Shown piece after piece: positions 13,785 to 42,500 of a DNA stretch of 64,000 nt (position 1 is the first letter of the stretch; each line of letters starts with the position of its first letter). The position numbers and the translations under genes are program-made. The notes beneath the pieces were generated by a model, which ran no database searches, was not told the DNA's origin, and was given only the letters and a program-made list of their open reading frames with translations. The DNA comes from Streptomyces sp. SID13031 (GTDB lineage: Bacteria > Actinomycetota > Actinomycetes > Propionibacteriales > Kribbellaceae), in assembly GCF_010548305.1 (NCBI RefSeq), contig NZ_JAAGLV010000025.1, positions 62,001 through 126,000 of the forward strand, written 5' to 3'.

Positions 13785-14750
13785 TTACTCGTCTCGGGAA
13801 TGCGGGCGTCGGGCCAGCGAGGGCGGGGCAAAGTAGACAGATTCGGTGCTTGTGATCCGCTCCTCGATGTCGAGTGGGCCGAGAGTTCGCAGCGCCTCCA
13901 GCACACCAGCGAGCAGATGCGGTGGTGCGGAGGCGCCGCCGGTGAGCCCAATGGTGGTCACCGCGTCGAACCATTCGGATCTCAGCTGTGTGGCGTCTTC
14001 GATCAGCCAGGCAGCCACGCCCTCCCGGCGGGCGACGTCGACCAGGCGCTGAGAGTTGGAGGAGTTTGTCGAGCCGACGACGAGCACAAGATCAGCCTCA
14101 GCGGCGACAGCCCGCACCGCGTTCTGGCGATTCGTGGTGGCATAACAAATGTCGTCGTCCGGAGGGGCCTGCAGCTCAGGGAACCTGCGCTGTAGGACCT
14201 CCACAACCGCTGCGGCTTCGTTCGTGGCGAGGGTGGTTTGGGTGAGGTACGCGACGCGCCGCGGGTCGTCGACCGAGACGGTGGCAGCGTCGTCGGCGGT
14301 CTCGATGATAATGATGTTGTCGGGTGCCTCGCCGTAGGTGCCATCGGTTTCCTCGTGTTCGGCATGGCCCACCAGAAGGATGGTCTTTCCTTGCGCGGCA
14401 AACCGGCGCGCTTCAGAGTGGACCTTGGACACGAGCGGACAGGTGGCATCGACCGTGTCCAGTCGGCGCTGCTGGGCCTGCTCGTGGATAGCGGGTGCAA
14501 CGCCGTGCGCGGAGAACACGACGCGGGCACCTTCCGGGACTTCGGTCAGTTCGTCGACGAAGATCGCACCTTTGTCGCGCAGGTCAGCCACCACATGGGA
14601 GTTGTGGACGATCTCTTTGCGCACATAAATCGGCGGGCCGTGGAGGGCGAGTAAGTTCTGCACGGTGTCGATCGCGCGTTCCACGCCGGCGCAGAAGGCC
14701 CGCGGCGAGGCCAGCAGCACCCGGCGGGTCGGGCCTTGACCAGCCATCAC
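13785..14750 (-). CDS. ispH: 4-hydroxy-3-methylbut-2-enyl diphosphate reductase
   Basis: Last step of the MEP pathway: reduces HMBPP to IPP and DMAPP using a [4Fe-4S] cluster. The three cluster cysteines are visible: Cys20 in SPRAFCAGV, Cys104 in [10 protein letters not shown] and Cys202 in DDICYATTN. Active-site signatures [17 protein letters not shown] and [10 protein letters not shown] are present. At 321 residues it is the usual length. Its GTG start at 14750 overlaps the ispG stop by four bases; an ATG follows immediately at 14747. It is probably a cluster-dedicated second copy that boosts precursor flow, since actinomycetes normally carry a housekeeping ispH elsewhere. Confidence 0.96.
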
Positions 14751-15919
14751 AACACCCTGCCGTCGGCAACAACCAGCGGCGGCCCAGCCTCCGCGTTGTC
14801 AACAGGTCGCTGGTCGGCGAGCCGGAGCGCTTCCTCGATCAGCGTCTCCACGATCTTGGACTCGGGCACTGTTTTGATGACCTCGCCATTGACGAAGATT
14901 TGGCCCTTGCCGTTGCCGGAGGCGACCCCCAGGTCGGCCTCGCGGGCCTCACCCGGCCCGTTCACCACGCAGCCCATGACCGCGACCCGCAGCGGCACGT
15001 CCATGCCTTCGAGCCCGGCTTGGACCTGCTCTGCGAGGGTGTAGACGTCGACCTGAGCCCGCCCGCAGGACGGGCAGGACACGATCTCCAGACGGCGCTG
15101 GCGAAGGCCGAGCGACTCGAGGATCCCGATGCCGACCTTGACTTCCTCGACCGGAGGCGCCGACAGCGAGACCCGGATTGTGTCGCCGATACCCTCGGCC
15201 AATAGTGCGCCGAAGGCCACCGCTGACTTGATCGTGCCCTGGAACGCGGGTCCAGCCTCGGTCACGCCTAGGTGCAGCGGGTAGTCGCAGCTCTGCGCGA
15301 GCAGGCGGTAGGCGTTGATCATCGTCACCGGGTCGTTGTGCTTGACGGAAATCTTGAAGTCATGGAAGTCGTGCTCCTCGAATAGCGAGGCCTCCCACAG
15401 AGCCGACTCGACCAGCGCCTCCGCGGTAGGCCTGCCGTACTTGGCCAGCAGCCGCTTGTCCAGCGACCCGGCGTTGACACCGATCCGAAGCGCCACACCG
15501 GCGTCCTTGGCAGCTCGCGCAATCTCGCCGACCCGGTCGTCGAACTTCCTAATATTGCCCGGGTTGACCCGCACAGCCGCGCAACCTGCATCGATCGCGG
15601 CGAACACGTACTTGGGCTGGAAATGGATGTCAGCGATCACCGGGATCTGCGACTTCTTGGCGATCGCGGGCAGTGCGTCCGCGTCGTCCTGGCTTGGTAC
15701 CGCGACCCGGACGATCTGACAGCCCGCCGCAGTCAGCTCAGCGATCTGCTGCAGAGTGGCTTCAATGTCGGCGGTCTGCGTCGTAGTCATCGACTGCACA
15801 CTGACCGGCGTATCCCCACCCACCGGCACCCCACCGACGTTAACCTGCCGGCTCTTGCGCCGCCCCGCCCGCGCCCGCGCTGCAACGGCCGGTGTCGGTA
15901 TCCCCAGGAACGTTGTCAT
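14747..15919 (-). CDS. ispG: 4-hydroxy-3-methylbut-2-en-1-yl diphosphate synthase
   Basis: MEP-pathway enzyme that converts methylerythritol cyclodiphosphate to HMBPP. The 390-residue bacterial form shows the TIM-barrel N-terminal half ([26 protein letters not shown]) and the C-terminal [4Fe-4S] domain with Cys282 and Cys285 in SCPSCGR and Cys317 in [10 protein letters not shown]. Its ATG overlaps the dxs stop (ATGA, four bases), and its own stop overlaps the ispH start, so the three genes are translationally coupled. As with ispH, it is likely a pathway-specific duplicate. Confidence 0.96.
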
Positions 15920-17853
15920 GCCGCCTGGCCCTCTCCGTCGGTGATAGGCGGCGTCGTGTGGGCCTGCCGTTCGAGCCCGGCGAGGGTGTCAGCGATCCCC
16001 TGTGCCATGTGCTGTGCGGTGAGGCCTACCTCGGTGAGAACCTCTGACCGTGTGCCCTGGGAAAGGAACCGCTGCGGTATGCCGAGGTTCAGCATGGGTG
16101 TCCAAACCGCGGCATCACGTAGCGCCTGGGACAGCGCGGCACCCACGCCACCGGTGCGACCGCTGTCCTCGACGGTCACCACCAGCCGGGCGCCGGACGC
16201 GAAGGTGGCCAGGGCGGGGTTGATTGGCTTGACCCAGCGGGGGTCGACGACCGTACAGCTCGTCCCCGCCTCGGCGAGCTGGTCCGCGGCGGCAAGGCAT
16301 GCTTGCGCCGCTGCACCCACCGACACGATCAGCACATCGGTCATGCGCTGCGTCGAGCGCAACACATCTATGCCCGCAACCCGATCTGTCGCCGCAATGT
16401 CGGCACCGACGGCCCCCTTTGGAAACCGCACCGCCGTGGGACCGTCTTCCACAGCGATCGCCTCGCGTAATTCCTCGCGCAACGTCGCCCCGTCGCGCGG
16501 GGCCGCGAGCCGCAGCCCGGGCACCAGTTGCAGCAACGACATATCCCACATGCCGTTGTGGCTCGGCCCGTCATCTCCAGTGATCCCAGCCCGGTCCAAC
16601 ACAAACGTCACGCCGCAGCGGTGCAAGGCCACGTCTAGCAAGACCTGGTCGAACGCCCGATTCAGGAACGTCGAATATAGGCACACGACCGGATGCAAAC
16701 CTCCGATTGCCAGCCCGGCCGCAGACGCCACGGCGTGCTGTTCGGCGATCCCCACATCAAAAATGCGCTTCGGGAACCGGCGCCCGAACTCCACCAGGCC
16801 CACAGGCCCGGGCATCGCGGCCGTGATCGCCACCACACGACGATTGGTTGCAGCGATGTCGACCAGCTCAGCACCGAACACCGACGTCCAGGTCCTCTGG
16901 CCTGATACCCGCGGCGCGCCGGAGCTCGGGTCGAACGGCGGCGGCCCGTGCATGCAATCGGCGTCATCCGCCTCGGCCGGACCGTATCCACGACCCTTCT
17001 GGGTGACGCAATGCACCACAACCGATCGGCCTCGGCCGCGCGCACAACGTAGCGCCGACTCCACGCTGGCCAGGTCATGCCCATCCACCGGCCCGATGTA
17101 GTCCAAACCCAAGGCCGTGAAGACGGTGCCATCGATACTCACGGCGCCGTCGCTTGCCTGGTACTCACCGGCACGCCGCCCCCGAACCTCGTGAAGGTGA
17201 GAGGCCACCCCGCCGACGGTCGGCGCATACGAGCGGCCGTTGTCATTGACCACCACAATCACGCCGAGCTCCGGCGCGGCACCCAGGTTGTTCAGCGCCT
17301 CCCAGGCCACGCCACCCGTTAGCGCTCCATCACCGATGACACACGCCACTCGACGGTCGGCCTCACCGCGCAACTGCCGGGCTTTCGCAAGGCCATCGGC
17401 ATACGCCAAACTCACCGATGCATGCGAATTCTCGATCACATCATGCGGCGACTCGGAACGACTCGGATAACCCGACAAGCCGCCCTGCGCGCGAAGCCGC
17501 CCGAATTTCTCGCGACGCCCTGTAAGTAGCTTGTGCACATATGCTTGATGCCCGGTATCCCACAAGATGGTGTCGAAAGGAGAATCGAAAACACGATGCA
17601 ACGCCAATGTCAACTCCACAACTCCGAGGTTGGGGCCTAGATGCCCACCTGAAGCCGACACCGAGGCCACCAAGAACTCCCGGATCTCCGCCGCGAGACC
17701 AAGCAAATTGTGCATGCCCAACCTACGAACATCGGCAGGCTCGCGGATCGTGGACAAGCAACCCGCTGCCCAGTCAACAATCTCTTCGCAGGCATCGAAC
17801 CGCTTGCCCATTTTGCCTACTCTCGCAATAGCTGGATAGATCGCTGCCGTCAT
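15916..17853 (-). CDS. dxs: 1-deoxy-D-xylulose-5-phosphate synthase
   Basis: Thiamine-diphosphate enzyme joining pyruvate and glyceraldehyde 3-phosphate, the flux-setting first step of the MEP pathway. At 645 residues it has the complete transketolase-like architecture: [25 protein letters not shown], the TPP motif [16 protein letters not shown], then the pyrimidine-binding domain with [11 protein letters not shown] and the C-terminal domain. It leads the four-gene operon. The ATG at 17853 is used; an internal ATG at 17814 preceded by AGTAGG is an alternative. A degenerate CTAGGGG-like pair lies about 100 bases upstream, close to the IS21 remnant. Confidence 0.95.
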
Positions 17854-18045: not shown

Positions 18046-19051
18046 ATGAGTTTCGCGCACTTCGGTGGGGTGCCGCAACGATCGTCTACGACCGGACCAA
18101 GCCGGTGGTCAAGCAGCATGTCGCGCCCGGGTCGCGGTTCCGCTGCAGCCGGAGGCCGCCGCGTTCGCCGAGCACTACGGGTTCACCATCGACGTGCTGG
18201 CCGCCTACCGGCCCACCAGCAAGGGCCGGGTCGAACGCCAGGCCGTCATCGTTCGCGACCACGTGCTCGCCGGACGGTCGTTCGACTCGGTCGGCGAGCT
18301 GGACAGCGCCTTCGAAGGGTGGTTGCCGATCCGCCGCGGCCAGGTGCACCGCACCCACGGGCAGGTGATCGCGGTCCGGGCCGAGACCGACCGGGCCGCG
18401 CTGCAACTGTTACCGACCCTGCCCTACCTGGTCGCCGACAAGCACCTGCGCCGGGTCGGCAAAGACTGTCTGCTGTCGTTCGAGGCCAGCTTCTACTCCG
18501 TCCCGGCCCGCCAAATCCGGCCCGGGCAGCGAGTCCAGTTGCAAACCGACGGCGCCGTCGTCACCATCCACGCCGTCGTCGCCGACGGCGGCCGGGCCAG
18601 CGTCCGTGGTTCCTGGGTCGTCGACCAGACCCACTGGGACGGGCTGCCCGACGGACACACCCGCGCCGTCACCCTTGACCCGCCAGGTGGACTTGCCGGC
18701 CCAACCTCTGTGCCACAACGGCCGGGCATCCCGGGTGCGCCGAGCCCGCTGGCGGCGTTGCTGGGCGCGAACCACGCCGCGGCCCCACCGGTCGCACGCC
18801 GGCCGCTGACCGACTACCAGGCCGCCGCCCTCGCCCACCCCATCCACCAGAACTGGCCGGAGCCGAACCCATGGCCAGCACACCCAGCAGCAACTCTGCC
18901 GACGTCACAGTCACCGGCTATGCAGCGACAAGCCTCGTGGAACTGCTCGACCACTGCGAACAGTTCCTCCGCACCGCCAGCCCGGTCGTGCGCACCGAAC
19001 TGGACACCTTCCTCACCCAGCAGCCTTCACGGTCCGACGCCGGCTGGCTGA
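18046..19051 (+). pseudogene. istA: istA transposase remnant
   Basis: The IS21 transposase core is spread over three frames. SFAHFGGVP starts at 18046, TIVYDRTKPVVKQHVAPG is in a second frame, and PEAAAFAEHYGFTIDVLAAY with RPTSKGRVERQ and RDHVLAGRSFDS is in the third, which then runs open to 19051. The DDE core's glutamate region (KGRVERQ) is visible, but the N-terminal HTH and the first two acidic residues are absent. The last 60 codons overlap the small ORF that follows and are probably read-through past a lost stop. Confidence 0.8.
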
Positions 19052-19140
19052 TCGACCTGCTCGGCTTCAACGCCCTTTACCTGCAGGGAAAACTCGCCCT
19101 TGCCGACACCCATACCGACCAGGCAGGAGACCGCTCGTGA
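18871..19140 (+). CDS. Small IS21 accessory ORF between istA and istB
   Basis: 89 residues, helical, with SLVELLDHCEQFLRTAS and SRSDAGWLIDLLGFNALYL. Similar short ORFs sit between istA and istB in actinobacterial IS21 elements. Its stop overlaps the GTG start of istB (GTGA), as expected for coupled translation. Function unknown. Confidence 0.6.
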   Translation: MASTPSSNSADVTVTGYAATSLVELLDHCEQFLRTASPVVRTELDTFLTQQPSRSDAGWLIDLLGFNALYLQGKLALADTHTDQAGDRS

Positions 19141-19961
19141 GCAGCCTGACCACCGACCGGATCCGCGACCACGCCACCAAGCTCGGACTGACCCACCTCA
19201 CCGAAGTCGTCACCCAGCTCGTCGAACGACCAGAGAACGCGCAGATGGGCTACCTCGACTTCGTCGACCTCCTCCTCGAAGAAGAACTCGGCCTGCGCGA
19301 GGGCCGCCGGTTCCGCAACGCACTCAAGCTATCCGGGCTGCCACACCACAAGAGCCTGGACGACTTCGACTTCGCGTTCCAGCCCGACCTCGACGCCCGC
19401 AAGGTCCGCGACCTGGCCACCCTCGAGTTCGTGAAAGCGAAGTCCAACGTCGTCCTGCTCGGACCGCCCGGGGTCGGCAAGACCATGCTCGCCGTCGCGC
19501 TCGCCATCGGAGCCTGCCAGGCACGGTTCTCCATCTACTTCACCACCCTGGACGACCTGGTCCGCCGGCTCCGCGCCGCCGAGGCCACCGGCCGGTTCAA
19601 GCGGCAACTCCAGGTCTACCTCCGCCCTGCCGTCCTCGTCGTGGACGAAGTTGGCTACCTCCCGCTCGACCAGGCCAAGGCCAACATGGTGTTCCAGCTC
19701 GTCTCCCGCCGCTACGAACGCGGCACGATGATCATCACGTCCCACAAGTCCTTCGCCGAATGGGGCGGCGTCCTCGGCGACGACGTCCTAGCCACCGCCA
19801 TCCTCGACCGGCTCCTCCACCACTGCGACGTCCTCAACATCAACAGCCCCAGCTACCGGCTCAAAGACCGCCTCAACCTCGTCACCGGAGGCGAATCCAT
19901 GCCACGATCACCACGCCGAGACCGACACATCAGGTCGTACACCAACCGACATACGAGGTAG
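19137..19961 (+). CDS. istB: IstB-like transposition helper ATPase
   Basis: 274 residues. AAA+ ATPase of the IstB/DnaC type with Walker A LLGPPGVGKTML, Walker B VLVVDEVGYLPL and sensor region MIITSHKSFAEWG. The N-terminal helical domain (HLTEVVTQL to LREGRRFRNALKLSGLP) is present. The gene looks full length and intact. It would assist IstA in target selection, but its partner is broken. The GTG start overlaps the preceding ORF's stop. Confidence 0.92.
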   Translation: MSSLTTDRIRDHATKLGLTHLTEVVTQLVERPENAQMGYLDFVDLLLEEELGLREGRRFRNALKLSGLPHHKSLDDFDFAFQPDLDARKVRDLATLEFVKAKSNVVLLGPPGVGKTMLAVALAIGACQARFSIYFTTLDDLVRRLRAAEATGRFKRQLQVYLRPAVLVVDEVGYLPLDQAKANMVFQLVSRRYERGTMIITSHKSFAEWGGVLGDDVLATAILDRLLHHCDVLNINSPSYRLKDRLNLVTGGESMPRSPRRDRHIRSYTNRHTR

Positions 19962-20089: not shown

Positions 20090-20992
20090 TCACGACAGGT
20101 GGAACTGTCCGTTTGACGCGTAATATCCGGTGACCCAGTAGATCAGCCGACGAATTCCAATGGCGGTTTGCACACCAGAGGCTATCAACGGCTTCAGAAC
20201 GGAACTGCAAGAGTCGACATGAAAATTGATTTGCTTGGTGACCCAGACCGGGTCTGCACCCAACATCATGATGTTCAGCGGCGCAAAGTCATCACGCTCG
20301 TGGCTACGGCCATACAGATCGTTGGCCAAACGTCCAGCCAGGCTGTAGTGCCTGAGCGCGATCCTAATTCGACACAGCCACGGCAGAATATCACGGTCCT
20401 CCGTCAATATTAGCCTGCCCAAGTGAATGAAGTCCCCACCAAATGACCACCTGGCGTAACGGAGATATTCGTCGATGCTGGGAGGGGCTTTGCCGCAGCG
20501 TATGTCAATTCCCGCAATCCGTTCATAGAGCGTCGCATCCAGATTTCGATCAAACGCCTCCCGCCATAGCGATCCGACTGCGTGGAACAGCGGACGTTGA
20601 GACAGATCCCGGCGGATCTCACAGAGCAACGTCGCGAATTCGTCACCGTGGCCCAATCTCGCGCCATCAGCGATAGCGCGATAGCGCGCTTGGACCCCTT
20701 CGAACTCCGACATGGACATGGCACTCCGATCGAGTATGTGGTCGCCAGCGAGGAACCACATCGTTGACTTTGCACCCCGGACTAAATCATCTGTCGCCAT
20801 GCCCGGCCACGAAAATGAATGCGCGACCCCGACTGGAACCACATAGGGCAATATACTTGGATATGGCGTAGCCCACTCCTCAAGCGCCCTAGTCAACTGG
20901 GTGACTCGAATTCCTATCGGAAGGAACGAGGACACCTCCGCCGCCATATCGATTTCGTCATTCAACCGGACCTCCACGTGGATATTCGTCAT
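20090..20992 (-). CDS. Class I terpene synthase (probable diterpene synthase)
   Basis: 300 residues of the alpha-domain terpene synthase fold. The metal-binding motif is non-canonical: FLAGDHILD has Asp84 and Asp88 (DxxxD) where DDxxD is usual. The second motif RLANDLYGRSHERDD gives Asn224 and Glu232, with Gly at the central Ser/Thr position of NSE. Such variation is common among bacterial class I enzymes that ionise copalyl-type diphosphates. The SD sequence GTAGGAGG overlaps the P450 stop 12 bases upstream, so it is the last gene of the core operon. Next to a class II cyclase it probably takes the bicyclic diphosphate and makes a labdane-related olefin or alcohol. The product cannot be predicted. 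Confidence 0.8.
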   Translation of the reverse strand: MTNIHVEVRLNDEIDMAAEVSSFLPIGIRVTQLTRALEEWATPYPSILPYVVPVGVAHSFSWPGMATDDLVRGAKSTMWFLAGDHILDRSAMSMSEFEGVQARYRAIADGARLGHGDEFATLLCEIRRDLSQRPLFHAVGSLWREAFDRNLDATLYERIAGIDIRCGKAPPSIDEYLRYARWSFGGDFIHLGRLILTEDRDILPWLCRIRIALRHYSLAGRLANDLYGRSHERDDFAPLNIMMLGADPVWVTKQINFHVDSCSSVLKPLIASGVQTAIGIRRLIYWVTGYYASNGQFHLS

Positions 20993-21004: not shown

Positions 21005-22279
21005 CTACCGCCTGCTCATCTCCATACGCACGTTGCGACCGAGGCCCATCGCTGGCCCGCGTTGTTGCGGGACCCCTTGCTTCGGGTTAGGGCAAACAAA
21101 TACCACCTGCCTCACCATCGCAGCAACGACCATACGAAGCTCCATCATCGCCAGATCGGATCCGAGGCATCGCCGAACGCCTCCACCGAACGGAAAAAAC
21201 TCGGAGGAAGACCGACGTGTCTTCAGAAATCGATCCGCGTCGAAACGCAATGGGCCGGGATAAATATCCGGCTGATGGTGCGCCAAATAGATGCACGGCG
21301 TTATCTTGGTTCCCGCCGGCAGCCCGCGCCCGAAATATTCCCCATCCTCGCCCAGAATGCGGCTTCCCGCAATCGTGGCCGGCGGCGAGATGCGGAGAGA
21401 CTCCCGACACACCGCATCGAGAAGCGGAACGTCTCTGCCGTCGGATCCATCGGAAGTCGTCGACTCAAGTTCTTCTCGAAGATCCGAATTCAATGCGGGG
21501 TTTTGGTCCAGCCAAAATAGTGTCCATGCGATCGCCGATGCTGTCGTCTCGTGTCCGGCAAAGAGAAGGGACATGATCTGGTCGACAAGTTCCTCATCGG
21601 GCAACATACCTAATGCGTGGTCACCCAAAATTAACAACTTGGCAAGACTTAAGTCGCCACTAGATACACAACGGTGCGCTTCAGCGAGCAACTCGCGGCG
21701 CAGTTGAGCTCGTCGATGAATGAACGGCCCCCAGGGCTGTACCAACGAACTCGGACCTCGGAGATAGCGATATGCCAAGGCCTTTCTGCGGGTGCCAAGC
21801 GCGCCATCGACCCAAGCGCCATAGCGATCAAGGATGCTATCGGTGGCACGTTCCCCGCCGACAACTATCCTTCCGACAATGTGCAGTGCAAGGCTTCTCG
21901 CCCAGTCAGCAAGAAGAAGTACAGTCGGTGTCCGAGATAGCTTCTCTATCGCATCGTCTGCAACAGAAGAAATGAGCGCGCGATAACCCATCAAAGAGCG
22001 GCCACGCATGGCCGGACCCAGTACTGCACGATATTCTACGTGGCGCTGGCCGTTAGCGAAGAGCAACGACGAGTTGCCAACCAACGGGCCCAGCGTCTGG
22101 CTACCTTCCGCGCACATTCGGGTGCCAGATCGAAATATCTGACCAACCGAATCCGGATCCCAGACCAGCAAATCGGGGGCCGACCTGTTTCCGAGGTTCA
22201 GTAATCCGACTTGGTCAGGCGGCAGCGAGTCCAGGAATCGCTGACCTCGGAGTGCGAAAAGGAGCCTGTTTCTATTCAC
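21005..22279 (-). CDS. Cytochrome P450 monooxygenase
   Basis: 424-residue soluble bacterial P450. The I-helix reads FAGHETTAS (241-246 for AGHETT), the ExxR motif is CRESLRISPP (Glu293, Arg296), and the heme loop is FFPFGGGVRRCLG with ligand Cys371. It starts at GTG 22279 with a weak SD. It lies between the second P450 (59-base gap) and the class I synthase (12-base gap), so it most likely oxidises the diterpene scaffold. FAGHETT with FGGGVRRC resembles the CYP families related to CYP102/CYP110-like or plant-type enzymes more than CYP105/107; I would not assign a family number. Confidence 0.92.
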   Translation of the reverse strand: MNRNRLLFALRGQRFLDSLPPDQVGLLNLGNRSAPDLLVWDPDSVGQIFRSGTRMCAEGSQTLGPLVGNSSLLFANGQRHVEYRAVLGPAMRGRSLMGYRALISSVADDAIEKLSRTPTVLLLADWARSLALHIVGRIVVGGERATDSILDRYGAWVDGALGTRRKALAYRYLRGPSSLVQPWGPFIHRRAQLRRELLAEAHRCVSSGDLSLAKLLILGDHALGMLPDEELVDQIMSLLFAGHETTASAIAWTLFWLDQNPALNSDLREELESTTSDGSDGRDVPLLDAVCRESLRISPPATIAGSRILGEDGEYFGRGLPAGTKITPCIYLAHHQPDIYPGPLRFDADRFLKTRRSSSEFFPFGGGVRRCLGSDLAMMELRMVVAAMVRQVVFVCPNPKQGVPQQRGPAMGLGRNVRMEMSRR

Positions 22280-22338: not shown

Positions 22339-23583
22339 TCACCAGCAGACGGGCAGCTCACGTAGTCCGCGAAGCAGCATCGCGGGACGCCAGGCGAGCG
22401 TACTCACAGGCACAGACAGTCGCAAATTCGGCAATCGGGTAAATAGTGCCTCGACCGCTATCCTGCCTTGCATTTTAGCTAGTGGAGCGCCAACGCACCT
22501 ATGGATTCCGTGACCGAAAGCCAAGTGGGACTCTTTACCAATAAGCACATCCAATGTTCGGTTCGGCAATGGGCCCGCCGGATTCCGGTTCGCCGACGCT
22601 AGTGACACGAGAACGACCTGGCCCGCCGGAATGGTCACTGATCCGATGCGTACAGGTTCCACCGTAAAGCGGCGCATTGTAGTCTCGACGGGACTTCGCA
22701 ATCGAAGTGCTTCCTCGATGACGTTCTCTGCTAGGTTCATATCTTTGAGAAGCGGGCCGATCTGCTCACGGTGGGTCAGGAGAAGATAGACACTGTTACC
22801 GATCAGGTGGGCCGCAGTCTCGAAACCAGACACTATAAGCAGAAAAAGTGTGGAGACAAGCTCCTCATCGTCGATTTCGCTCGAGCTTCTTGAGGCGATG
22901 ATCAAGGCGGATATCAGATCGTCCCTACTACTGAGCTTTTGTTTTTCTTTGATGGTGTTGGTCAAATATTCGTTAAGCGAGCGACTGGCTGAGAGTCGGG
23001 TAACTGCGTTCGTTTCGCCGTTGGTGAGATTCTCCGTCCACCTACGTAGGTTTTCGGCGTCCCCAGCAGGGAGGCCAAGAAGCTTGCAAAGCATGCGCAG
23101 AGGCAATGGCAGGGCGAAATCAGTGATCAGGTCCGCGGTGCGATCGGGCGACTGCTCCATGCGGTCAATCAAATCCTCTGCAAGCTGGCTCACCTTCAGG
23201 TCGAGCGAAGCAATCTTCCGCGGGGTGAATTCGCGTGCTATAGCCCGGCGAAGTCGCGTGTGATCGGGTGGATCAGCATTATGCATGTGCTTGCCCATGT
23301 ATATTCTGGTCTCTATCGGCACTCGCGAGGACTCTCGGCCGCCGGGGAGCATGTCGAGGTTCTTCGATAGCCTCAGGTCTGCGAGAGCTTGCTTTGCATC
23401 GGCATAGCGGGTCACCAGCCACACCCTTCCGGCAGGCGTGCTTATCGGGCGAACGGGTCCAATGTAAAGCTCCGGATTGTAGTACGGCCCAGGATCTGTG
23501 AGGAATTCGGCCTGGTCGACCTCAGAGGACCTCTTCATGACGGAATACAGTTCATGTGGAATGCGCTCCAGTTTCCGGCTCAT
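22339..23583 (-). CDS. Cytochrome P450 monooxygenase, CYP105/107-like
   Basis: About 414 residues. Hallmarks are HMHNADPPDHTRLRR (the class II bacterial PPDHTRLR block), I-helix IVSGFETAAH, ExxR in EEALRLRSP, and heme loop FGHGIHRCVGAPLA with Cys363. In the I-helix the second threonine is replaced by Ala (ETA), which is tolerated in some P450s. The ATG at 23583 is used; the frame is open to a TTG at 23598. Either start lies inside the 3' end of the class II cyclase gene (32-47 base overlap), so the two are coupled. Likely role: second oxidation of the diterpene. Confidence 0.92.
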   Translation of the reverse strand: MSRKLERIPHELYSVMKRSSEVDQAEFLTDPGPYYNPELYIGPVRPISTPAGRVWLVTRYADAKQALADLRLSKNLDMLPGGRESSRVPIETRIYMGKHMHNADPPDHTRLRRAIAREFTPRKIASLDLKVSQLAEDLIDRMEQSPDRTADLITDFALPLPLRMLCKLLGLPAGDAENLRRWTENLTNGETNAVTRLSASRSLNEYLTNTIKEKQKLSSRDDLISALIIASRSSSEIDDEELVSTLFLLIVSGFETAAHLIGNSVYLLLTHREQIGPLLKDMNLAENVIEEALRLRSPVETTMRRFTVEPVRIGSVTIPAGQVVLVSLASANRNPAGPLPNRTLDVLIGKESHLAFGHGIHRCVGAPLAKMQGRIAVEALFTRLPNLRLSVPVSTLAWRPAMLLRGLRELPVCW

Positions 23584-25192
23584 TTTCAGCGCGGGCAATG
23601 AGTGGAATATTTGACATTGCGGCCAATATGTCCGGCTGGCTGATTGCCATATATAGTGAGCTGATCCGCGCCGCCTTTACCACCGCAAGCGGTGTATACA
23701 ATTCCTTGTCGTGCCAGAGCGGCGGATGATCGTCAAGGCCGGTATGTGTAATGAGGAAGCCGGCGCCATGGGCAATAGCGGATTTTATGGCAAGAGACCG
23801 GTTTGGGATCTCCAAAGTGATCAGCGTCCGCACGGCGTAGGCTGTCTCCTCCACGGTGCCCTGCCAGCGCCCCCAAGACCCGTCTATGCGCTGAGTGTCC
23901 AGTATCCATCTCACTGTTCTAGTGAGGGTCGATGTTGCACTTAGCCCTAACCGCACCAGCGAAAGCGTGCAGCACATGGTGGCATAGTAAGGTGAGGCGT
24001 GCCATTTGTCTTGCCATGCGCCATCGCGCCCCTGGACATCTATCAACCAATGCATTACTTTGCTTATTGCGCCGCGCCGTCGACGTTCGGACACCGTTGC
24101 AAACAATCGGCGATCAGGCAGTATATCGAGGATGTGCGCATTGGTACTTGTAGATGGTGTCCGCTCACCCTCGAAGCACTGGAAGTATTCATCGCCCTCA
24201 TAGTGAAAAAGGCAATCCGCGCTATGCGGCGCCCCTAGCTTTGAGAGGGCGTAGAGTGCTCCAGCAGTGTCGTCGGAGTCGGGTGGAAGTCCAAGTCCTG
24301 CTGGCGCGCCCTTGGTCGTGATCGACTGACTCAACTGCCGCAACATACGGGGCGAGACCGACACATCAACAGAGGCGGATGCGAACGATGACAGAACCCA
24401 AGCGACCTCGAAGACTGAGATTGGGCTGACGCCTGGGACTGGCCCTCCCAGGCGAGCCTGCGCCTCAACCAGGTAACTGACGGAGGATGAATCACTTTGT
24501 CGAGGGCTGCGCCCGAGCCAGGCCGCGGTGGCAGCCGGGGAACAGCCGACGCTGCCGTTTACTGGGAGGACGAACGATGCGTGGTGCGCACTGTCGCCCA
24601 AGAACTCGAGCGAGTGCCAGAACTTGGGTCCGATCGCGATGCCCCGGCGAGCACGGTCACGAAGTGCGTTGAGTAACTGGTCGTCCATGTGGGAGCGCGC
24701 GACGACGGCATGCGCCGGCATGACGTGCTTTCCTTGAGATCGCAACTCCTCCAGTCGATCATTGACTTCGCTGGCTAACCACGGAACAAGCAACTCCCAT
24801 GCAATCATATCGGGCTCATCCGGTGCTGACGGAGAATTGTGGGAAGCTGCTAGTGATCTCAATCCCAGATCTATAGCCTCTCGACAAACAGGATCCGCGT
24901 CGTCGTCACGCCTGAATTCGACCAGCAGTGCCTCGATCGCACTTAAAGTGGGGGCAAGGGTGTAGCCAGCAGGACCGCCCCACGTACCGTCATCTTGTTG
25001 GCGGTCGATCAAGAATCGCACACGGCTGGCGTGCCCATCGAGCCACGGGGCAGACGAGACTAGGCGGGCTGACTCATAGACGGAGGGCGAAACGAGGCTG
25101 CCTGCTTCGGCGGCCAGCTCGTCGACGAGCTGCTGTGCCTCGTTGGCCAGTGTCGTGCGATGGTGGACAGCTTGGTAACTGCATTGCTCCAT
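23552..25192 (-). CDS. Class II diterpene cyclase (copalyl diphosphate synthase-like)
   Basis: Squalene-cyclase-fold protein of about 546 residues that protonates GGPP to a bicyclic labdadienyl/copalyl-type diphosphate. The class II acid motif DxDD is present as LPPDSDDTAGALYALS (Asp305, Asp307, Asp308 from this start). QW-like repeats RQQDDGTWGG and QRIDGSWGRW are present. The ATG at 25192 is chosen because AGAAGGG lies five to six bases upstream; the frame is open to 25243. It heads the operon class II cyclase, P450, P450, class I synthase. A class II plus class I pair is the defining set for labdane-related diterpenoids. Stereochemistry cannot be read. Confidence 0.9.
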   Translation of the reverse strand: MEQCSYQAVHHRTTLANEAQQLVDELAAEAGSLVSPSVYESARLVSSAPWLDGHASRVRFLIDRQQDDGTWGGPAGYTLAPTLSAIEALLVEFRRDDDADPVCREAIDLGLRSLAASHNSPSAPDEPDMIAWELLVPWLASEVNDRLEELRSQGKHVMPAHAVVARSHMDDQLLNALRDRARRGIAIGPKFWHSLEFLGDSAHHASFVLPVNGSVGCSPAATAAWLGRSPRQSDSSSVSYLVEAQARLGGPVPGVSPISVFEVAWVLSSFASASVDVSVSPRMLRQLSQSITTKGAPAGLGLPPDSDDTAGALYALSKLGAPHSADCLFHYEGDEYFQCFEGERTPSTSTNAHILDILPDRRLFATVSERRRRGAISKVMHWLIDVQGRDGAWQDKWHASPYYATMCCTLSLVRLGLSATSTLTRTVRWILDTQRIDGSWGRWQGTVEETAYAVRTLITLEIPNRSLAIKSAIAHGAGFLITHTGLDDHPPLWHDKELYTPLAVVKAARISSLYMAISQPDILAAMSNIPLIARAENEPETGAHST

Positions 25193-25312
25193 GGCAGCCC
25201 TTCTATCCATTCGGGTCGATCGCAACGAGATCCGGCGAGTCATCGGAGCCTGCCTAGCGTTATCCCGCGGCGCCGCTTCGACGTTGACATCTCAGGTGCC
25301 GTGTCACATGAG

Positions 25313-25337
25313 GGACTCCCCCTAACCTGCCCCCTAG
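25313..25337 (-). promoter_or_regulatory. CTAGGGGG direct repeat upstream of diterpene cyclase operon
   Basis: On the minus strand: TAGGGGG, CAGGT, TAGGGGG, then AGTCC. Two identical heptamers are 12 bases apart, 121 bases before the cyclase ATG. The best match is the pair at 28081 upstream of the QueA-like gene. Proposed binding site for a shared activator. Confidence 0.55.
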
Positions 25338-25369
25338 AGGTCTAGGTCCGGCGGAGCCGGAGTTTTGGG

Positions 25370-26300
25370 TCAAGTTTCAGGCTGCGAGTCCAGCTTTTTG
25401 GGCGAGGTTGTCGAGGGCGGTCTGGTAGGCGCGGGTGGCTGTGGCGAGTGGGCCTGTGTTGGGGTGGCGAGTTGTGCGAGGCCGGTGCGGAGTAGCCGGT
25501 CGTGAGATTTGGTGAGGAAGAGGACGTGGTGGAGGCCGGTGTCGGTGACGTGGTAGCGGTGGGTGTGGGGGATGCGGGTGATCAGGCCGTGCTCACGGAG
25601 GCGGCGCAGGTCGTAGGTCATCTGGCCGGCGGATACCTGTTCGGGTTGTTTACCGAGTAGTGGTGCGGTGAGTTCGCGCAGGTCGCGGTTGCTGAAACCG
25701 TGGGGCAGTAACGGAAGACCAGTAGGGCGCCGAGCAGGGCATGAGCGCGTGGATCGGCGAAGCGCAGCCCGGCGACGCGTTTGCCGTTGCTGGTGGCGAC
25801 CGGGTCGTTGACGGTGTGGAAGACCTCCGCGCCGCGGGCGGGATCATGGCTGAGTCGTTGGACGCCGAGCAGGCGCCGGTTGGCGGAGAAGCCGATCTCC
25901 CGCAGGGCGGGCAGATTACTCAGCCGTTTCCCGATCTCGAAATCGCGGGTGTCGTTCATGGTGGTCTCGGTTCGTAGCGCCCGGCCTTCCTTGTGGTACT
26001 GCTTGATCGTGGCGTGCTTGTAGTCGACGTGCAGGCTCGGGGTGACTCCTCGGTGATGACGCGGGTGCGGAACCGTCCCGGGGTGGTGCGCGGTCCGGTT
26101 CGTTTGAGTCTGCGGTCGAAGACCAGGCTGACCTGGTCGGGGCGGCCGATGTCGAGGTTGTCGCGGATGACTTGTCCGAAGAAGATCCGTCCCGACACCG
26201 GCCGGTCCAGCATCTGGGTCAAGGAGAACTCGGCCTGCAGGATCTCGGCGATGTCCAACAAGCTGAGCAGATGTACACCGCAGTCGCTCGAGCGACATCC
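25370..26300 (-). pseudogene. Frameshifted conserved actinobacterial ORF with C-terminal winged helix
   Basis: Pieces of one protein lie in three frames. LDRPVSGRIFFGQVIRDNLD is the N-terminal part (near 26200). VDYKHATIKQYHKEGRALRT with EIGFSANRRLLGVQRL follows in a second frame to about 25700. GFSNRDLRELTAPLLG leads into QMTYDLRRLREHGLI in the third, ending at 25370. The last part looks like a winged helix. I know similar uncharacterised proteins from actinomycete genomes, often near mobile DNA, but no function. Its left end abuts a TPR fragment, suggesting it arrived with a rearrangement that cut that gene. Confidence 0.6.
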
Positions 26301-26558
26301 CCACAAAGCTCCAACCGAATCCTGCGGCGACTATATTTTCAGGCACTGGTCGGGCTCGAGGGAGTCGCTCTGGCACGGTTCGACTACCATCGCGCTGAGT
26401 CGATTCTCAGTACGGCGCTATCGATCGGTCACTCAGCAGGAGCCACTCGGCACGAGCGTGCCCGCGCTCACAACGACCTTGCGATGACGTTCAAATACTC
26501 AGGTAATTCCAGCGAGGCGGCCATCCACAACCAACTGGCGCTCGACCTTCTCACCTAG
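26275..26558 (+). pseudogene. TPR-protein fragment (third paralogue)
   Basis: The forward frame ending at 26558 reads YFQALVGLEGVALARFDYHR, AESILSTALSIGHSAG, and then NDLAMTFKYSGNSSEAA. These match NELAVTFKYSGNFDEAA in the intact TPR gene at 3571-4638. Only about 90 residues of the middle remain; both ends are lost. Together with 3571-4638 and 6039-6884 it makes a series of the same family in three states. Confidence 0.65.
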
Positions 26559-26851
26559 CTGCTGGGCGCGCCACCACGCCGAGTTGGCCGCCATACAGCA
26601 AAACCTTGGTGTCCATCTTGGTGAACCTTGCGGTGCTCCGCCGTCGCGCTCACGGAGCTCGCGCGGGTCGAGTAGAGCATAGTACGACCTGGGTGCGCAC
26701 CTGCAGTACGGTCTCGGCGATGGCCAACTCGTAGTCGCGGAAACACAGATGCGGATGTCCATACGTCGATCGGCTGGACTGAGCATCTGTTCGTGACGAC
26801 GAACTCAACGGTCCAGCTTGCGACTCTCGACGACCAGTCTTGCGTCCGGCA
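26559..26851. other. Intergenic, no gene seen
   Basis: About 290 bases between the TPR fragment and the QueA-like gene's stop. No family resemblance, RNA or hairpin recognised. Confidence 0.35.
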
Positions 26852-27994
26852 TCAGCTCGCTGAAGTCGGCGTGTGATCTCCGATGACGAGCATCGAGTCG
26901 CCGTGGATGCCAAAGCCATAGCGGTATTCAATGGACTGTCTGTAGGCCTCACGGATGAGGTCGGCGGGTGCGAATGTGGCGGCCATGACGATGTGGGTCG
27001 CCATCGAGTTGTGGAGATTGGTCAAAAGACCCGAGCAGTACTTGAGTTTGGTTCCTGGCGAGAGAAAGAGGTTGGTACGGGAGTCGCACGCGGCCGCGGG
27101 TACCGGAAGTGACTCCAGTACGCGCACCGAACTGGTACCGATACCGATGAGCCGCCTGCCTGTCCCCACGACGTCCCGGATCTGCCCGGCCGCTCGGTCG
27201 GTGACTGCGTACTCCTCGAAGTTCATCTTGTTGTCCGACAGCGGCATGTCGCCGTAGTCCGAGTCCCAGAAGTTCCAGCCGAACGACATCCACAGCGACA
27301 CGCTGATCGTGTCGATCCCTCGCCCAGCCATCTCGACGAGCATCTCTGGAGTCAGTCTGCGGGCCGGCTCCGACACCAACACTGCACCGAGCCGCCGCGT
27401 CGTGATCGGGTTCAGTTCGTCCTCAGCGAGGTGCTCATGGTTGGTGTACCACGGATACATGAAAGCGCCATGTACGTCCAGCGATTGCCTGAGCTGGTCC
27501 TTCGTTGCCGCACAACGGATGAGCGCACGATAGCCGTGATAGCGATCCCGTTCGATCCAGTACTGGGCATCGAACTCAGCGATCCGATCGGGACCGAATG
27601 CGCTCACCGGTCCCAGGACCTCGCCGTCAATACCACCAGCCAGAGTGAACCGTCCCTCAGCCGGAGGGAATCCATCATCGGAGAGAACCATCGCCTCCCA
27701 AAGGTGTGAATCTTCCTGCAGGACGAAACAGACGTCCAGCGGTTGACCGGACTCGGCGAACCCGCACAGCCGGGATCGTGAGATCCCTGCGTCGTTGAGG
27801 ACTATCGCGTCGTCGTCGGCCAGGAAGTCTCCCAGGTTGCGAAATCGGTCGTGCACGATGGTCTCGGAAGCAGCGTCCACCACGACCAGTTTCGCTTCGT
27901 CAGCTCCGCGGTGCTCTGAGTTGCGGAACAGCTCTTTGGGGATGTCGAACGCGAAGTCCGAGAAGCGCAGGTTCCCATCTGAAATATTGGACAT
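26852..27994 (-). CDS. QueA-like S-adenosylmethionine ribosyltransferase-isomerase paralogue
   Basis: 380 residues matching the QueA fold end to end. The N-terminus reads LRFSDFAFDIPKELF and VVVDAASETIVHDRFRNLGD, then DAIVLNDAGISRSRL. The middle has EDELNPITTRRLGAVL. The C-terminus has GIGTSSVRVLESL, LLTNLHNSMATHIVMAATFA and YRYGFGIHGDSMLVIGD. True QueA moves the ribosyl of SAM onto 7-aminomethyl-deazaguanine in tRNA, and its neighbours are normally tgt or queC-E. None are here. Several canonical residues differ (FDIPKEL for FDLPEEL; YPWYTNHEHL in the central region). The SD is AAGGA seven bases before the ATG. It shares the upstream direct repeat with the diterpene operon, so a natural-product role is inferred. 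Confidence 0.82.
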   Translation of the reverse strand: MSNISDGNLRFSDFAFDIPKELFRNSEHRGADEAKLVVVDAASETIVHDRFRNLGDFLADDDAIVLNDAGISRSRLCGFAESGQPLDVCFVLQEDSHLWEAMVLSDDGFPPAEGRFTLAGGIDGEVLGPVSAFGPDRIAEFDAQYWIERDRYHGYRALIRCAATKDQLRQSLDVHGAFMYPWYTNHEHLAEDELNPITTRRLGAVLVSEPARRLTPEMLVEMAGRGIDTISVSLWMSFGWNFWDSDYGDMPLSDNKMNFEEYAVTDRAAGQIRDVVGTGRRLIGIGTSSVRVLESLPVPAAACDSRTNLFLSPGTKLKYCSGLLTNLHNSMATHIVMAATFAPADLIREAYRQSIEYRYGFGIHGDSMLVIGDHTPTSAS

Positions 27995-28080
27995 GGGTCG
28001 GATCCTTTGAGTCGTCCAAGGCGCCAGGATGGCTGTCCCTCCTCCGTTGTACTGACGGGTCTTACCCGCAACGACAGGAA

Positions 28081-28103
28081 CTCCCCTAGGACTTCCCCCT
28101 AGG
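28081..28103 (-). promoter_or_regulatory. CCTAGGGG direct repeat upstream of QueA-like gene
   Basis: On the minus strand: CCTAGGGG, GAAGT, CCTAGGGG, then AG. Two identical octamers are 13 bases apart, 87 bases before the ATG at 27994. This is the clearest example of the motif set. Confidence 0.6.
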
Positions 28104-32119: not shown

Positions 32120-32922
32120 GGTCGGCCGGGATCCCCGCCGACGTCGAGTTCACAACCAAACCAGCGCTGGACGCCGGCGTGACCGCGCGCTGGGTCGCCG
32201 GTGACGAGGTTTATGGCGCCGACCCGAAACTGCGTAAGACAGTGGAAGACCTCGGGTATGTGCTCGCGGTCGCCTATAGCCACCCGGTCCGCACCGGCGT
32301 GGGCAAGGTCCGCGCCGATCAACTCGCAGCCAGTCTGCCACGCAAGGCATGGCAGCGACTATCAGCCGGTCACGCCTCCAAGGGGCCGAGGTTCTACGAC
32401 TCGGCCTGGATCAGCATCGAACCCGAACACAGTGACGCTCAAGGGCAGCGGCGACTGCTGATTCGCCGCAACAACACCACCGGCGAGCTCGCCTACTACC
32501 GCTGCAGGTCACCGACACCAGTGCCGCTACGCGAACTGGTCGGTGTCGCCGGCCGCCGCTGGACGATCGAGGAATCCTTCCAAACCAGCAAGACCCTCAC
32601 CGAGCTCGACCAGTACCAGGTCGGCCGCTGGGACAGCTGACACCGCTGGACCATCCTCGCGATGCTCGCCTACGCCTTCCTCGCCGTCCTCACCGCGACC
32701 GAACGAGCCCAAACCTCAACCCCACCAGGCCTCATCGCGTTGACCCGCAACGAAATCCACCGCCTGTTCAACACCCTCATCACCGAACCGATACAAAACC
32801 TACGACACCGACTGCACTGGTCAACCCGGAGACGCCGACACCAACACCGCGCCCGAACCAGCCACTACCACCGCCAACAAGCCACCCCAACCACAGATCA
32901 CGAACTACGACTGCCGTACTAG
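32120..32922 (+). pseudogene. IS701-family transposase remnant
   Basis: The C-terminal two thirds of an IS701 DDE transposase are recognisable: WVAGDEVYGADPKLR, SWISIEP-like block, LLIRRNNTTGELAYYRC, LVGVAGRRWTIEESFQTSK, then after an in-frame TGA at 32638-32640 HRWTILAMLAYAFLAVL. The expected RWTSWHRW shows that the TGA replaces a tryptophan codon. The N-terminal third is missing, so the element is dead. No terminal repeats were identified. Confidence 0.8.
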
Positions 32923-33067
32923 GAAGCTTCACGACTCCTATCGCCCAAGCTTCCTAGAAGTAGGGGAGATCTTAGGGGCGAGCCCACATGTTCGCGTGGT
33001 GACCCGGCATTGATGCTGGACCATCTGGTCCGCAGCAAGAGCGGACCTCATCCCAGAGGTGCCGACC

Positions 33068-33700
33068 ATGTCAACAGCAGTCAACTCGTACCTGAACGTC
33101 CTCGTCGAAGAGAACGAGGCCTCGATGAGGCGTTTCAACGAAAGCGCACTGATGAGACTTCTGCGGGAGTCGGCGATTGAGAATGAGGCGGCGCAGACCC
33201 GATTCCTCGACTACTTCCAGTCCTGGTCCGATGAGTTTCAGCGAGTTATCGTGGTTCGAGCCAATTGTGAGGAGGGCGATGGGCCGCACGCGGAGCTGGC
33301 GCGTGAGCACCTCACTGAAGAGGTCGGCCACAACGAGATTCTTGCCGCCGATCGCGGCGCTGGTCGGCCCGCGAGGTGGGATCCGGTCGTCGCATGTGCA
33401 TCAGCGTGGTTCGTGGATACGATGCGGGAGATCGACTCGCCGAACCGAACAGCTCTCGCGCACTTGGTGCTCGAAGGTTCGGGACTTGTATTCGCCACAG
33501 CTGCATGCAAAGTTTTGCCGGGGAAGTTCTTCGAGTTGCATGAAGGCGCGGACTTCGAGCACCTCAACATGGGGATTGAGCTCCTCGGCCGGGACCCGTC
33601 CTGGCTTCTGGAGGATTTGCTTGTCACTCTTCGCCAGGGCTGGGACGTAATCACCTTGCTGTGCAGTAGGTTGGCGTTCCTTGCGACTCGGGATGAATGA
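33068..33700 (+). CDS. Heme-oxygenase-fold iron-containing protein
   Basis: About 210 residues from the ATG at 33068, which has AGAGGTG a few bases upstream (a GTG at 33059 is also in frame). The all-helical sequence has EEGDGPHAELAREHLTEEVG with His and Glu spaced as in TenA/PqqC-like and heme-oxygenase-like diiron oxidases, and a later helix FELHEGADFEHLNMGIELL with further His/Glu residues. This fits the 'iron-containing redox enzyme' group. The reaction is unknown, and it has no operon partner. Confidence 0.6.
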   Translation: MSTAVNSYLNVLVEENEASMRRFNESALMRLLRESAIENEAAQTRFLDYFQSWSDEFQRVIVVRANCEEGDGPHAELAREHLTEEVGHNEILAADRGAGRPARWDPVVACASAWFVDTMREIDSPNRTALAHLVLEGSGLVFATAACKVLPGKFFELHEGADFEHLNMGIELLGRDPSWLLEDLLVTLRQGWDVITLLCSRLAFLATRDE

Positions 33701-39356: not shown

Positions 39357-39538
39357 GTGTGCACGTTCTGGGTTCTGACGCGTATCAGTCTGGTCTGTTG
39401 GCCCTCATGGGGTAGAGACGAGCGAAGAGGGCAGACGACCGCGACTTCGGCGAGTTGTTCAAGGTACCAGGGGTTACGTCGCGACCGGACTTACCCCAGA
39501 CTGACCGTGGGATCTCTAGACGAGAAGGCTGGCGATCA

Positions 39539-42500
39539 ATGAGTCCAGGTTCCGATCCGCGGCGTCCTGATTTCGATCAGGGTGCTGCATCGGACGTCAC
39601 GAAGTCCGACGACCCCACGGAAGCTTCCTCAGGTCCACAGCCAGTCGACGCTCGCGGCGCAATGGGTCTACAGGTCGGCGACAGCAACATCCAGTACGTC
39701 TACACGTACAACCGGTCCTCCGATACGGACGATGCTTTCCCACCCGCCATGACCGTTTCTGGGACGGTAGAGTCACCGTACCGTGGTCTGAACGCGTTCG
39801 ACGAACGCGATGCAGTGTTTTTTTTCGGTCGCGAAGCCGCAACAGCAGCGGTACTGGAGCGGATGTCGGCACAGCTACACGCGTCTGGACCGTTGGTGGT
39901 TTCAGGTGTTTCTGGTGCTGGCAAGTCGTCCCTGCTGCAGGCCGGAGTCCTCCCTCTGCTCCGCGGGAAGGGCCTGAGGGCCGTACAAGAAGCAGCAGTG
40001 TGGCCATGCCTCATGTTTACACCTGGCTCTGCGCCTCTGGACGAACTCGCTGTCGCTGTCGCATCGCTGGCCGGCAGCGACGCTGCGGAGCTCCGGCGAG
40101 GTCTAGGCTCAGATCCTGGCAGCTTCAGGCTTACCGCCCGTCAGGCCGCTGCTTCGCGACGAGGCGACGGCAGTCAGCCTCGACTCGTGCTGGTGATCGA
40201 TCAGTTCGAGCAGCTATTCACGCAATGCCAGGATGAGGTTGAACGCGAAGCGTTCCTCACGGCGATCGACAGCGCGACAGCTGCGGTCAATGGGCACGCT
40301 GCGGCGGCGTTGGTCATCCTCAGCGTCCGGGCCGATTTCGAAGCACGTTGCGCTGAGTATCCGACATTGAAGGAATCCATCCAGAACAGGTACCTCGTCA
40401 CGTCGATGACGGATCGGCAACTCGAGCTGGCCGTTACGGAACCCCCCAAGAAGCTGGACGCTCACGTCGATAACGAGCTCGTCGAAGCCTTGCTGCGTGA
40501 GATGAAAGGCCGCAAAACAGCCATCAGAGCTGCGTCGTCGCCCACGTCAGGAGGCGTGTTCGGCGCTGGTGTGCTGCCACTGCTCTCACATTCCCTCGAC
40601 CAAGCGTGGCGGACCCGTGTCGATCCGAAGAACCTCACATTGGCTGACTACGAGCGAGCCGGCGGCATCGAGGGAGCCGTCAGAACCAGCGCGGGTAGCG
40701 CCTACGCCAAACTCACCCCGAGCCAGCAACCGATGGCGCGACAGGTCTTCATCCGGCTAACCACGACGACTGCCGACGGCGTGGACGCCGCCGACCGAGT
40801 CAACCGCGACGACCTGATTCGGGACGTTGTGGGTGCACCCGCCAAGGATGTCGAGGCGGTGTTGGAAGGGTTCGCGGCTGAGCGCCTCGTGACTCTGGGA
40901 AGCCGCACTGTAGAGATAGCTCACGAAGTGCTGCTGACGGCCTGGCCGCTCTTGCGTGATTGGCTGGTCGAAACTCACGCTGATCGAGTGGTGCGTAGCC
41001 GCATTCACCACGCCGCAACTGAATGGCTCGGCCACAACCATGATCCGTCGTATCTCTATCGTGGAACTCCTCTCGACCTTGCTACCGAAACGGTCGATCG
41101 ACTCGGCGCTGATCCAGCCCGATATCCGCCACTTAGCGAAATTGACCGGGACTTCCTCAACGCAGGCCTCCGAGCCCGCCGCCGAGAGTCCCAGCGACGG
41201 CACGCATTCACCGGAGCACTGATGGGTCTGGTTCTCGCAACCGGCTTAGTCGCTGTCCTGGCGATTCGTGCCAGCCAAACGGCGAGCCAGCAACGTGACA
41301 TTGCGGTATCCCAGCAGTTGATAAGAGAAGGTGAGGATCTGGGCGGTGCTGACCCTGCTAACGCGCGGCTGAAAAGCCTTGCGGCCTGGCGCATCCATCC
41401 TTCCGACGGTGCGCGGTACGCCATGATTGCAGCTGCATCGCTACCGGGCATCGCCGTCATGACCGGTCACACCGGTAGCGTTTTTTCGGCGGCGTTCAGC
41501 CCGGACGGCAAAACCCTCGCCAGCGGTGCTTACGACAAGTGGCTGCGGGTGTGGGATGTGGCCGGCCGCCAGCCGGTTAGTTCCCTGCTGACCGGTCCAC
41601 AGACCGGTGCCGTGTTGTCGGTGGCGTTCAGCCCGGACGGCGAAACCCTCGCCAGCGGCGGCTGGGACCGCACCGTACGACTGTGGGATGTGGCCAGCCA
41701 CCGGCCAATCGGTTCCCCGCTGACCGGCCACGTGGGTGCAATCGAGTCGGTGGCATTCAGCCCCGACGGCAACACCCTCGCCAGCGGCGGCCGGGACAGC
41801 ACCGTACGACTGTGGGATGTGGCCAGCCACCGCCCGATCGGCTCCCCGCTGACCGGCCACGTGGGTGCAATCGAGTCGGTGGCATTCAGCCCGGACGGCA
41901 AGACCCTCGCCAGCGGCGGCTGGGACGACACGATACGAATGTGGGATGTGGCCAGCCACCGCCCGATCGGCTCCCCGCTCACCGGTCACGGCGATTACGT
42001 TGAGTCGGTCACGTTCAGCCCGGACGGCAAAACCCTCGCCAGCGGCGGCTGGGACGACACGATACGAATGTGGGATGTGGCCAGCCACCGCCCGATCGGT
42101 TCCCGGCTCACCGGTCACACCGGTGGCGTTTGGTCGGTGGCGTTCAGCCCGGACGGCAAGACCCTCGCCAGCGGTGGCCGGGAAAGCACGATATTACTGT
42201 GGGATGTGGCCAGCCACCGGCGAATCGGCTCACCGCTCACCGGCCACGTGGGTCCTATCTTCGCGGTGGCGTTCAGCCCGGACGGCGAAACCCTCGCCAG
42301 CGGCGGCTGGGACAGCACCGTACGACTGTGGGATGTGGCCAGCCACCGCCCGACCGGATCCCCGCTCACCGGTCACACCGGTGACGTTGAGGCGGTGGCG
42401 TTCAGCCCGGACGGCGAAACTCTCGCCAGCGGCGGCTGGGACAGCACCGTACGACTGTGGGATGTGGCCGGCCACCGGCCGATCGGATCCCCGATCAAAA

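Follow-up and report, generated by a model that had tools for sequence, protein, structure and literature searches.

A divergent QueA-fold protein encoded beside diterpene biosynthesis genes in an actinobacterial genome without TGT

What might a QueA-like protein do when its gene lies beside a diterpene operon in a genome without TGT? Canonical QueA transfers the ribosyl part of SAM to the preQ1 base and isomerises it there, with release of adenine and methionine, and without TGT preQ1-tRNA cannot arise via the known route. To our knowledge, QueA is the only well-established enzyme that transfers the ribose of SAM, and preQ1 in tRNA is its only known acceptor. The gene considered here, referred to as QueAL, lies within a stretch of 64,000 nucleotides (the window), and the features discussed are collected in Table 1.

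Table 1. Features of the QueAL locus, with positions counted from the first letter of the window
Feature	Coordinates	Strand	Basis or remark
gcpE/ispG, precursor supply	14747..15919	-	PF04551, E 3.4e-145; possibly cluster member
dxs (DXP synthase), precursor supply	15916..17853	-	PF13292; possibly cluster member
IS21-type insertion sequence between dxs/gcpE and terpene genes	18065..19961	+	Mu-transpos_C_2, IstB_IS21
Class I terpene synthase	20090..20992	-	nearest solved relative Stt4548 (7e4m), E 5.5e-21
Cytochrome P450 b	21005..22279	-	PF00067
Cytochrome P450 a	22339..23598	-	PF00067; true start probably inside listed ORF
Class II diterpene cyclase, DxDD motif DSDD	23552..25243	-	nearest solved relative ent-CPP synthase 5bp8, E 1.9e-121
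Direct repeat TAGGGGGCAGGTTAGGGG	25319..25336	-	93 nt upstream of cyclase start
TPR-domain remnant, cyclase-QueAL spacer	26172..26558	+	TPR_12, E 2.9e-7; short ORF
QueAL, QueA-fold protein, 380 aa	26852..27994	-	PF02547, PDB QueA matches, AF2 model
Likely ribosome-binding site AAAGGA of QueAL	28003..28008	-	direct sequence reading
Direct repeat TAGGGGGAAGTCCTAGGGG	28083..28101	-	107 nt upstream of QueAL start; regulatory-type
Direct repeat TAGGGGAGATCTTAGGGG	32961..32978	+	107 nt upstream of ATG 33068
Orphan ORF, 210 aa, putative third regulon member	33068..33700	+	TAGGGG repeat upstream

Gene, fold and conserved residues of QueAL

The QueAL frame runs unbroken from ATG to stop over 380 codons, with coding-type GC contents of 0.62, 0.44 and 0.74 at the three codon positions and a Shine-Dalgarno-like AAAGGA 9–14 nt 5' of the ATG. 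Its product belongs to PF02547 (Queuosine_synth), matching positions 2–322 of the 322 in the profile (170.9 bits with a cut-off of 25, E 4.9e-50), which bears out the full-length QueA-like enzyme of a preliminary description made from the letters of this DNA, its ends and strand having been placed exactly. The QueA family and its fold have been described (PMC1282579), at a time when no structure of a QueA-SAM complex was available. The only QueA entries that we found in the PDB, 1vky, 1wdi and 1yy3, are also the PDB sequence matches of QueAL at E ≤ 0.001. An AlphaFold2 model (mean pLDDT 78.5, pTM 0.80), computed from an alignment of viral-contig QueA homologues, aligns with these three structures at Z 24.9–26.0 and with any non-QueA entry listed at Z ≤ 5.2, a weak similarity confined to the barrel domain. 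With sequence matches and structural alignment both leading to the three QueA structures, the matter of the fold can be regarded as settled, and it is virtually certain that QueAL has the QueA fold.

QueAL shares with the tRNA QueA proteins (TIGR00113 and the three structures) the same two-domain fold over its full length, as well as the Pfam family, and keeps their C-terminal core motifs GT(S/T)xxRxLE, TNxH and GDxM. It differs from them in being 22–29% identical, in missing the equivalog cut-offs, in having an insert at residues 132–151, which is poorly predicted in the model, and in its setting, as an orphan beside a diterpene operon in a genome without TGT. Furthermore, five blocks are substituted: AAAPTAGLHF has become a LVSEPARRL-like sequence, YQTV in the block YQTV(Y/F) has become LNPI, LPPYI is MYPWYT, TLHVG-GTF (aligned as TLHVGLG-TF) is SLWMSFGWNF, and H.MH.E is NKMNFEE. 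The low-confidence parts of the model (195–206 and 239–246) overlap these substituted blocks.

The preliminary description had remarked on changed residues in otherwise conserved blocks, and the extent of change proves considerable. In a reference set of 33 QueA sequences from viral contigs, 90 columns are conserved at ≥ 93%, and QueAL keeps 38 of these and substitutes 52, with H213R, H235W, H255N and H258N among the substitutions. It also lacks R31, Q195 and H235, which are conserved both in canonical QueA and in a TGT-less QueA-like clade discussed below. QueAL reaches less than half of the NCBIfam QueA equivalog cut-offs, scoring 150 bits against 324 for NF001140 and 121.5 bits against 267.45 for TIGR00113. 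Nine residues (L36, N67, G176, L234, E260, G286, T287, R291 and E294) do not vary in any of the 42 sequences compared, namely QueAL, 10 canonical QueA and 31 TGT-less-type homologues, and H328, Y351, G365 and D366 are kept in QueAL as well.

Queuosine context and relatives

The genome assembly spans 8.5 Mb in 134 contigs, with a completeness of 100%. It contains no match to TGT in a search that was positive in 14 of 14 control genomes, and the search for QueC returned just a 21-bit fragment of 61 residues and no real QueC. Because tgt and a real queC are both missing from the genome, an ordinary queuosine role is ruled out, and we consider it very likely that QueAL does not serve queuosine; a tgt or queuosine pathway elsewhere in the genome, for which the preliminary description had proposed a search, was not found. 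Within the genus, all 38 genomes carry a QueA-like gene of a type other than that of QueAL, and a partial TGT match (24–26 bits) is present in only three of them, such that QueA-like proteins independent of TGT evidently do exist. In three congeners a strong QueC lies beside a weak, partial TGT-like match (G012:C1:468546-472091, G013:C2:2043555-2047100 and G009:C1:897164-900733), and these loci are possibly 7-deazapurine nucleoside or DNA-modification clusters; the genus can therefore hold 7-deazapurine pathways.

One further QueA-like gene is present in the same genome, and it is a member of a TGT-less, SDR-coupled clade (L001 and 70 others) that is found throughout the class Actinomycetes in maximum-likelihood trees. 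QueAL resembles the members of this clade in belonging to PF02547, in coming from a genus without convincing TGT, and in having lost the LHF signature, but it falls outside the clade and is without the SDR coupling. An SDR gene lies beside the QueA-like gene in all 16 clade loci examined, and in the loci of the genus there is a FAD-linked oxidase nearby as well; neither an SDR nor a FAD-linked oxidase neighbour of QueAL was recognised in the window. The pairs of QueA-like and SDR genes are at L122:10119-11893 (contig C113 of the same genome) and at L123 to L137, and in the same genome the start and stop codons of the two genes overlap. The SDR-coupled family perhaps has a more general role than that of QueAL.

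Support for the clade excluding QueAL is 100/99 in a maximum-likelihood tree of 71 rows and 100/100 in one of 12 rows. The QueAL branch is very long, at 3.7–3.9 changes per column, and what the trees place is QueAL outside the TGT-less clade, not its attachment relative to canonical QueA. Both trees rule out that QueAL arose by recent duplication of the genome's second QueA-like gene, and as QueAL lies outside the clade to which that gene belongs it is not derived from it; the term paralogue, used in the preliminary description, does not hold in that sense.

No close relative of QueAL was found in 37 congeners, in more than 1,000 other actinobacterial genomes (the searches covered partly overlapping sets of 38, 392, 395, 366 and 327 genomes), or among 85,000 species scanned with a peptide pattern. 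Plasmids yielded only canonical QueA matches at 24–29% identity, and viral contigs yielded full-length matches no better than 26%, with short pieces reaching 38%. An identical gene in relatives without the diterpenoid cluster would have told against the link with diterpenoids proposed in the preliminary description, and neither an identical nor a close gene was found in the genomes searched. The family to which QueAL belongs is known, and within it QueAL is an orphan.

Diterpenoid genes and the TAGGGG repeat

The terpene genes lie downstream of QueAL on the same strand. A DxDD class II cyclase and a class I synthase are present together, as expected of a pimarane/labdane cluster, and the locus resembles the clusters terp1/sat and stt (PMC9814573) in combining these two enzymes with P450s. 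Stt4548, an isopimaradiene synthase (PMC9814573), is the closest solved relative of the class I enzyme, and cytochrome P450 b is 50–53% identical to P450s of several related diterpene clusters; judging from the genes present, the product is likely an oxidised pimarane-type diterpenoid. Among the annotated genes of the window we recognised no amine-forming step, and near QueAL no further biosynthetic genes that are obviously connected with QueA chemistry.

The locus differs from related clusters in the presence of QueAL itself. No QueA homologue of any type was found within ~10 kb of 100 related cyclase loci, some of which stop at contig ends; these comprise 20 loci from whole genomes and the loci of the best 80 cyclase matches in 85,000 genomes. 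The idea that labdane/pimarane clusters regularly include QueA is thus ruled out, and the pairing of QueA with diterpene genes has been seen once. The third-position GC content of QueAL is 0.74, compared with 0.59–0.64 in the four terpene genes, a difference that points to separate origins. The 1.6-kb spacer between the cyclase and QueAL (25250–26850) is full of short gene fragments, which are possibly the remains of a degraded cluster regulator.

A direct repeat of the form TAGGGG-N6/7-TAGGGG is present upstream of QueAL, of the cyclase, and of a third ORF, with each copy oriented as its gene. Counted in a looser form (TAGGGG-N5-8-TAGGGG) on the 126-kb contig, it occurs three times in the window, where 0.01 occurrences are expected and none of 100 shuffles reaches three, and is absent from the rest of the contig. 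A stricter form (TAGGGGG-N4-7-TAGGGG), which is the one counted genome-wide, occurs exactly twice in the 8.5-Mb genome, at the QueAL and cyclase promoters, and a reversed-pattern control gave three chance matches genome-wide. As the pattern was picked after the sites had been seen, the exact odds are soft. Even so, if some three sites arise by chance in the genome, one would fall on the right strand in the 150 nt before any given gene with odds of roughly 3 in 100,000. No copy of the element was found in the 2.3 Mb of sequence surrounding related cyclase and QueA-like genes, which sets this locus apart from the related labdane/pimarane clusters. A motif pattern with extra fixed bases misses the cyclase site, since the spacing there differs by one base.

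An ungapped similarity of 27 bp between the two promoters was also considered and is not significant (score 13, with 204 of 1,976 random pairs scoring equally or better), so that it is the internal direct repeat, together with its rarity, that carries the claim of a shared element. The preliminary description had reported a repeat common to QueAL and the cyclase operon; this survives in the form of the internal TAGGGG repeat, to which a third copy is now added, but not as plain ungapped similarity. The link that it drew between QueAL and the operon through this upstream element is upheld, as the promoter element supports co-regulation, and we think it probable that QueAL and the cyclase operon are regulated together. 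The simplest reading that the repeats support is that the three genes bearing them would form a small, cluster-specific regulon.

The third of these genes (33068–33700) has no match in Pfam, NCBIfam or the PDB. In Embleya, a cupin fusion protein has a C-terminal half with which the product shares 49% identity, and the neighbourhood of that Embleya gene contains no homologue of QueAL or of the window's diterpene genes. By eye, E..H-type motifs suggest that it is possibly a heme-oxygenase-like metal enzyme; we claim no fold for it because the single-sequence structure model (pLDDT 43) is too poor. Just upstream of the third TAGGGG site, at 32919–32957, is a perfect 11-bp inverted repeat (CTAGGAAGCTT / AAGCTTCCTAG, 17 nt apart), possibly an operator, a terminator or the end of an element.

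A proposed role and its alternatives

The reading that we favour, and to which we give an even chance, is one of recruitment: QueAL would be a divergent enzyme of the QueA fold, still dependent on SAM, that now serves in the regulon of a pimarane-type diterpenoid. A recruited SAM-dependent tailoring enzyme is preferred because the core is kept, such that SAM chemistry may persist, and because the loops are replaced, which suggests a different acceptor. From the residues retained, it seems slightly more probable than otherwise that QueAL is catalytic and SAM-dependent; that it acts on the diterpenoid itself is doubtful. Several points count against recruitment: the pairing with diterpene genes has been seen once, the third-position GC differs and a fragment-filled spacer intervenes, R31, Q195 and H235 are lost, the genomes searched yielded no orthologue by which purifying selection could be gauged, and the repeat pattern was picked with the sites already in view. 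In the mechanism proposed, SAM would still be bound via the retained core (N67, E260, G286-T287, R291, E294, H328, Y351 and G365-D366), deprotonation next to the sulfonium would proceed in QueA-like fashion with loss of adenine and methionine, and the C5 unit or another SAM-derived fragment would be transferred or rearranged onto a small-molecule acceptor of the pathway, with the substituted loops at about 195–214 and 235–258 accommodating a non-tRNA substrate. In its most far-reaching version, which we consider improbable, QueAL would be the first enzyme of the QueA type to pass a C5 unit (ribosyl or cyclopentyl) from SAM to a small molecule. The pimarane-type diterpenoid tailored in this way would then represent a new class of terpenoid conjugate with a SAM-derived part. 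That QueAL puts a SAM-derived ribosyl unit on the diterpenoid, as had been suggested in the preliminary description, is purely conjectural: several conserved QueA blocks are missing from it, an amine-forming step was not recognised in the annotated genes, and QueA homologues are absent from all 100 related diterpene clusters.

QueAL might instead be an active enzyme of an unrelated small-molecule pathway, with the repeat reflecting a local regulator and not a shared diterpene pathway. Its codon composition differs from that of the cyclase operon, gene fragments lie between the two, QueA homologues occur in none of the 100 related diterpene clusters, and the third repeat copy precedes an ORF without an assigned role, all of which would fit; however, the genome has scarcely any copies of the repeat outside these promoters, no other nearby biosynthetic genes with an obvious connection to QueA chemistry were recognised, and we regard this reading as unlikely. 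Somewhat less likely still, QueAL might be a QueA relative in decay or without catalytic activity, which came in by horizontal transfer and has persisted only by chance near a region rich in mobile elements. The very long branch, the loss of 52 of the 90 near-invariant columns, the insertion sequence and gene fragments around QueAL, and the lack of an orthologue in the genomes searched are all compatible with such decay, but the intact 380-codon frame has coding-type GC, a good ribosome-binding site and a promoter element, and the core residues common to all compared QueA lineages are kept, which random decay would not favour.

The two remaining alternatives involve nucleobases. QueAL could act on RNA, or on some other nucleobase, with no need of TGT; a 7-deazaguanine-like base formed elsewhere would be one example. 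Its QueA fold and the QueC genes beside TGT-like matches in three congeners might suggest such a role, but its own genome is without TGT and QueC, and it carries substitutions in the blocks that are specific to canonical QueA, making this very improbable. Finally, Pfam and fold membership are also what an ordinary tRNA QueA would show, but with no TGT in the genome, scores of 150 and 121.5 bits set against equivalog cut-offs of 324 and 267, and the signature blocks lost, that reading is close to refuted.

Nothing relevant was found in the literature on QueA in natural-product clusters or on QueA paralogues. If the recruitment of QueAL into the diterpenoid regulon is true, QueA chemistry has moved into specialised metabolism, and genome miners gain a new class of tailoring enzyme. 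The analysis also draws attention to the class-wide, SDR-coupled QueA-like proteins in genomes without TGT.

Two other genes in the window are of note. An nSTAND1 NTPase of 1,300 aa with a long array of WD40 repeats is encoded at 39455–43357, and an ORF of the AtuA family (acyclic terpene utilisation) is present at 10702–11589; the latter may be truncated, as its start falls inside the family profile.
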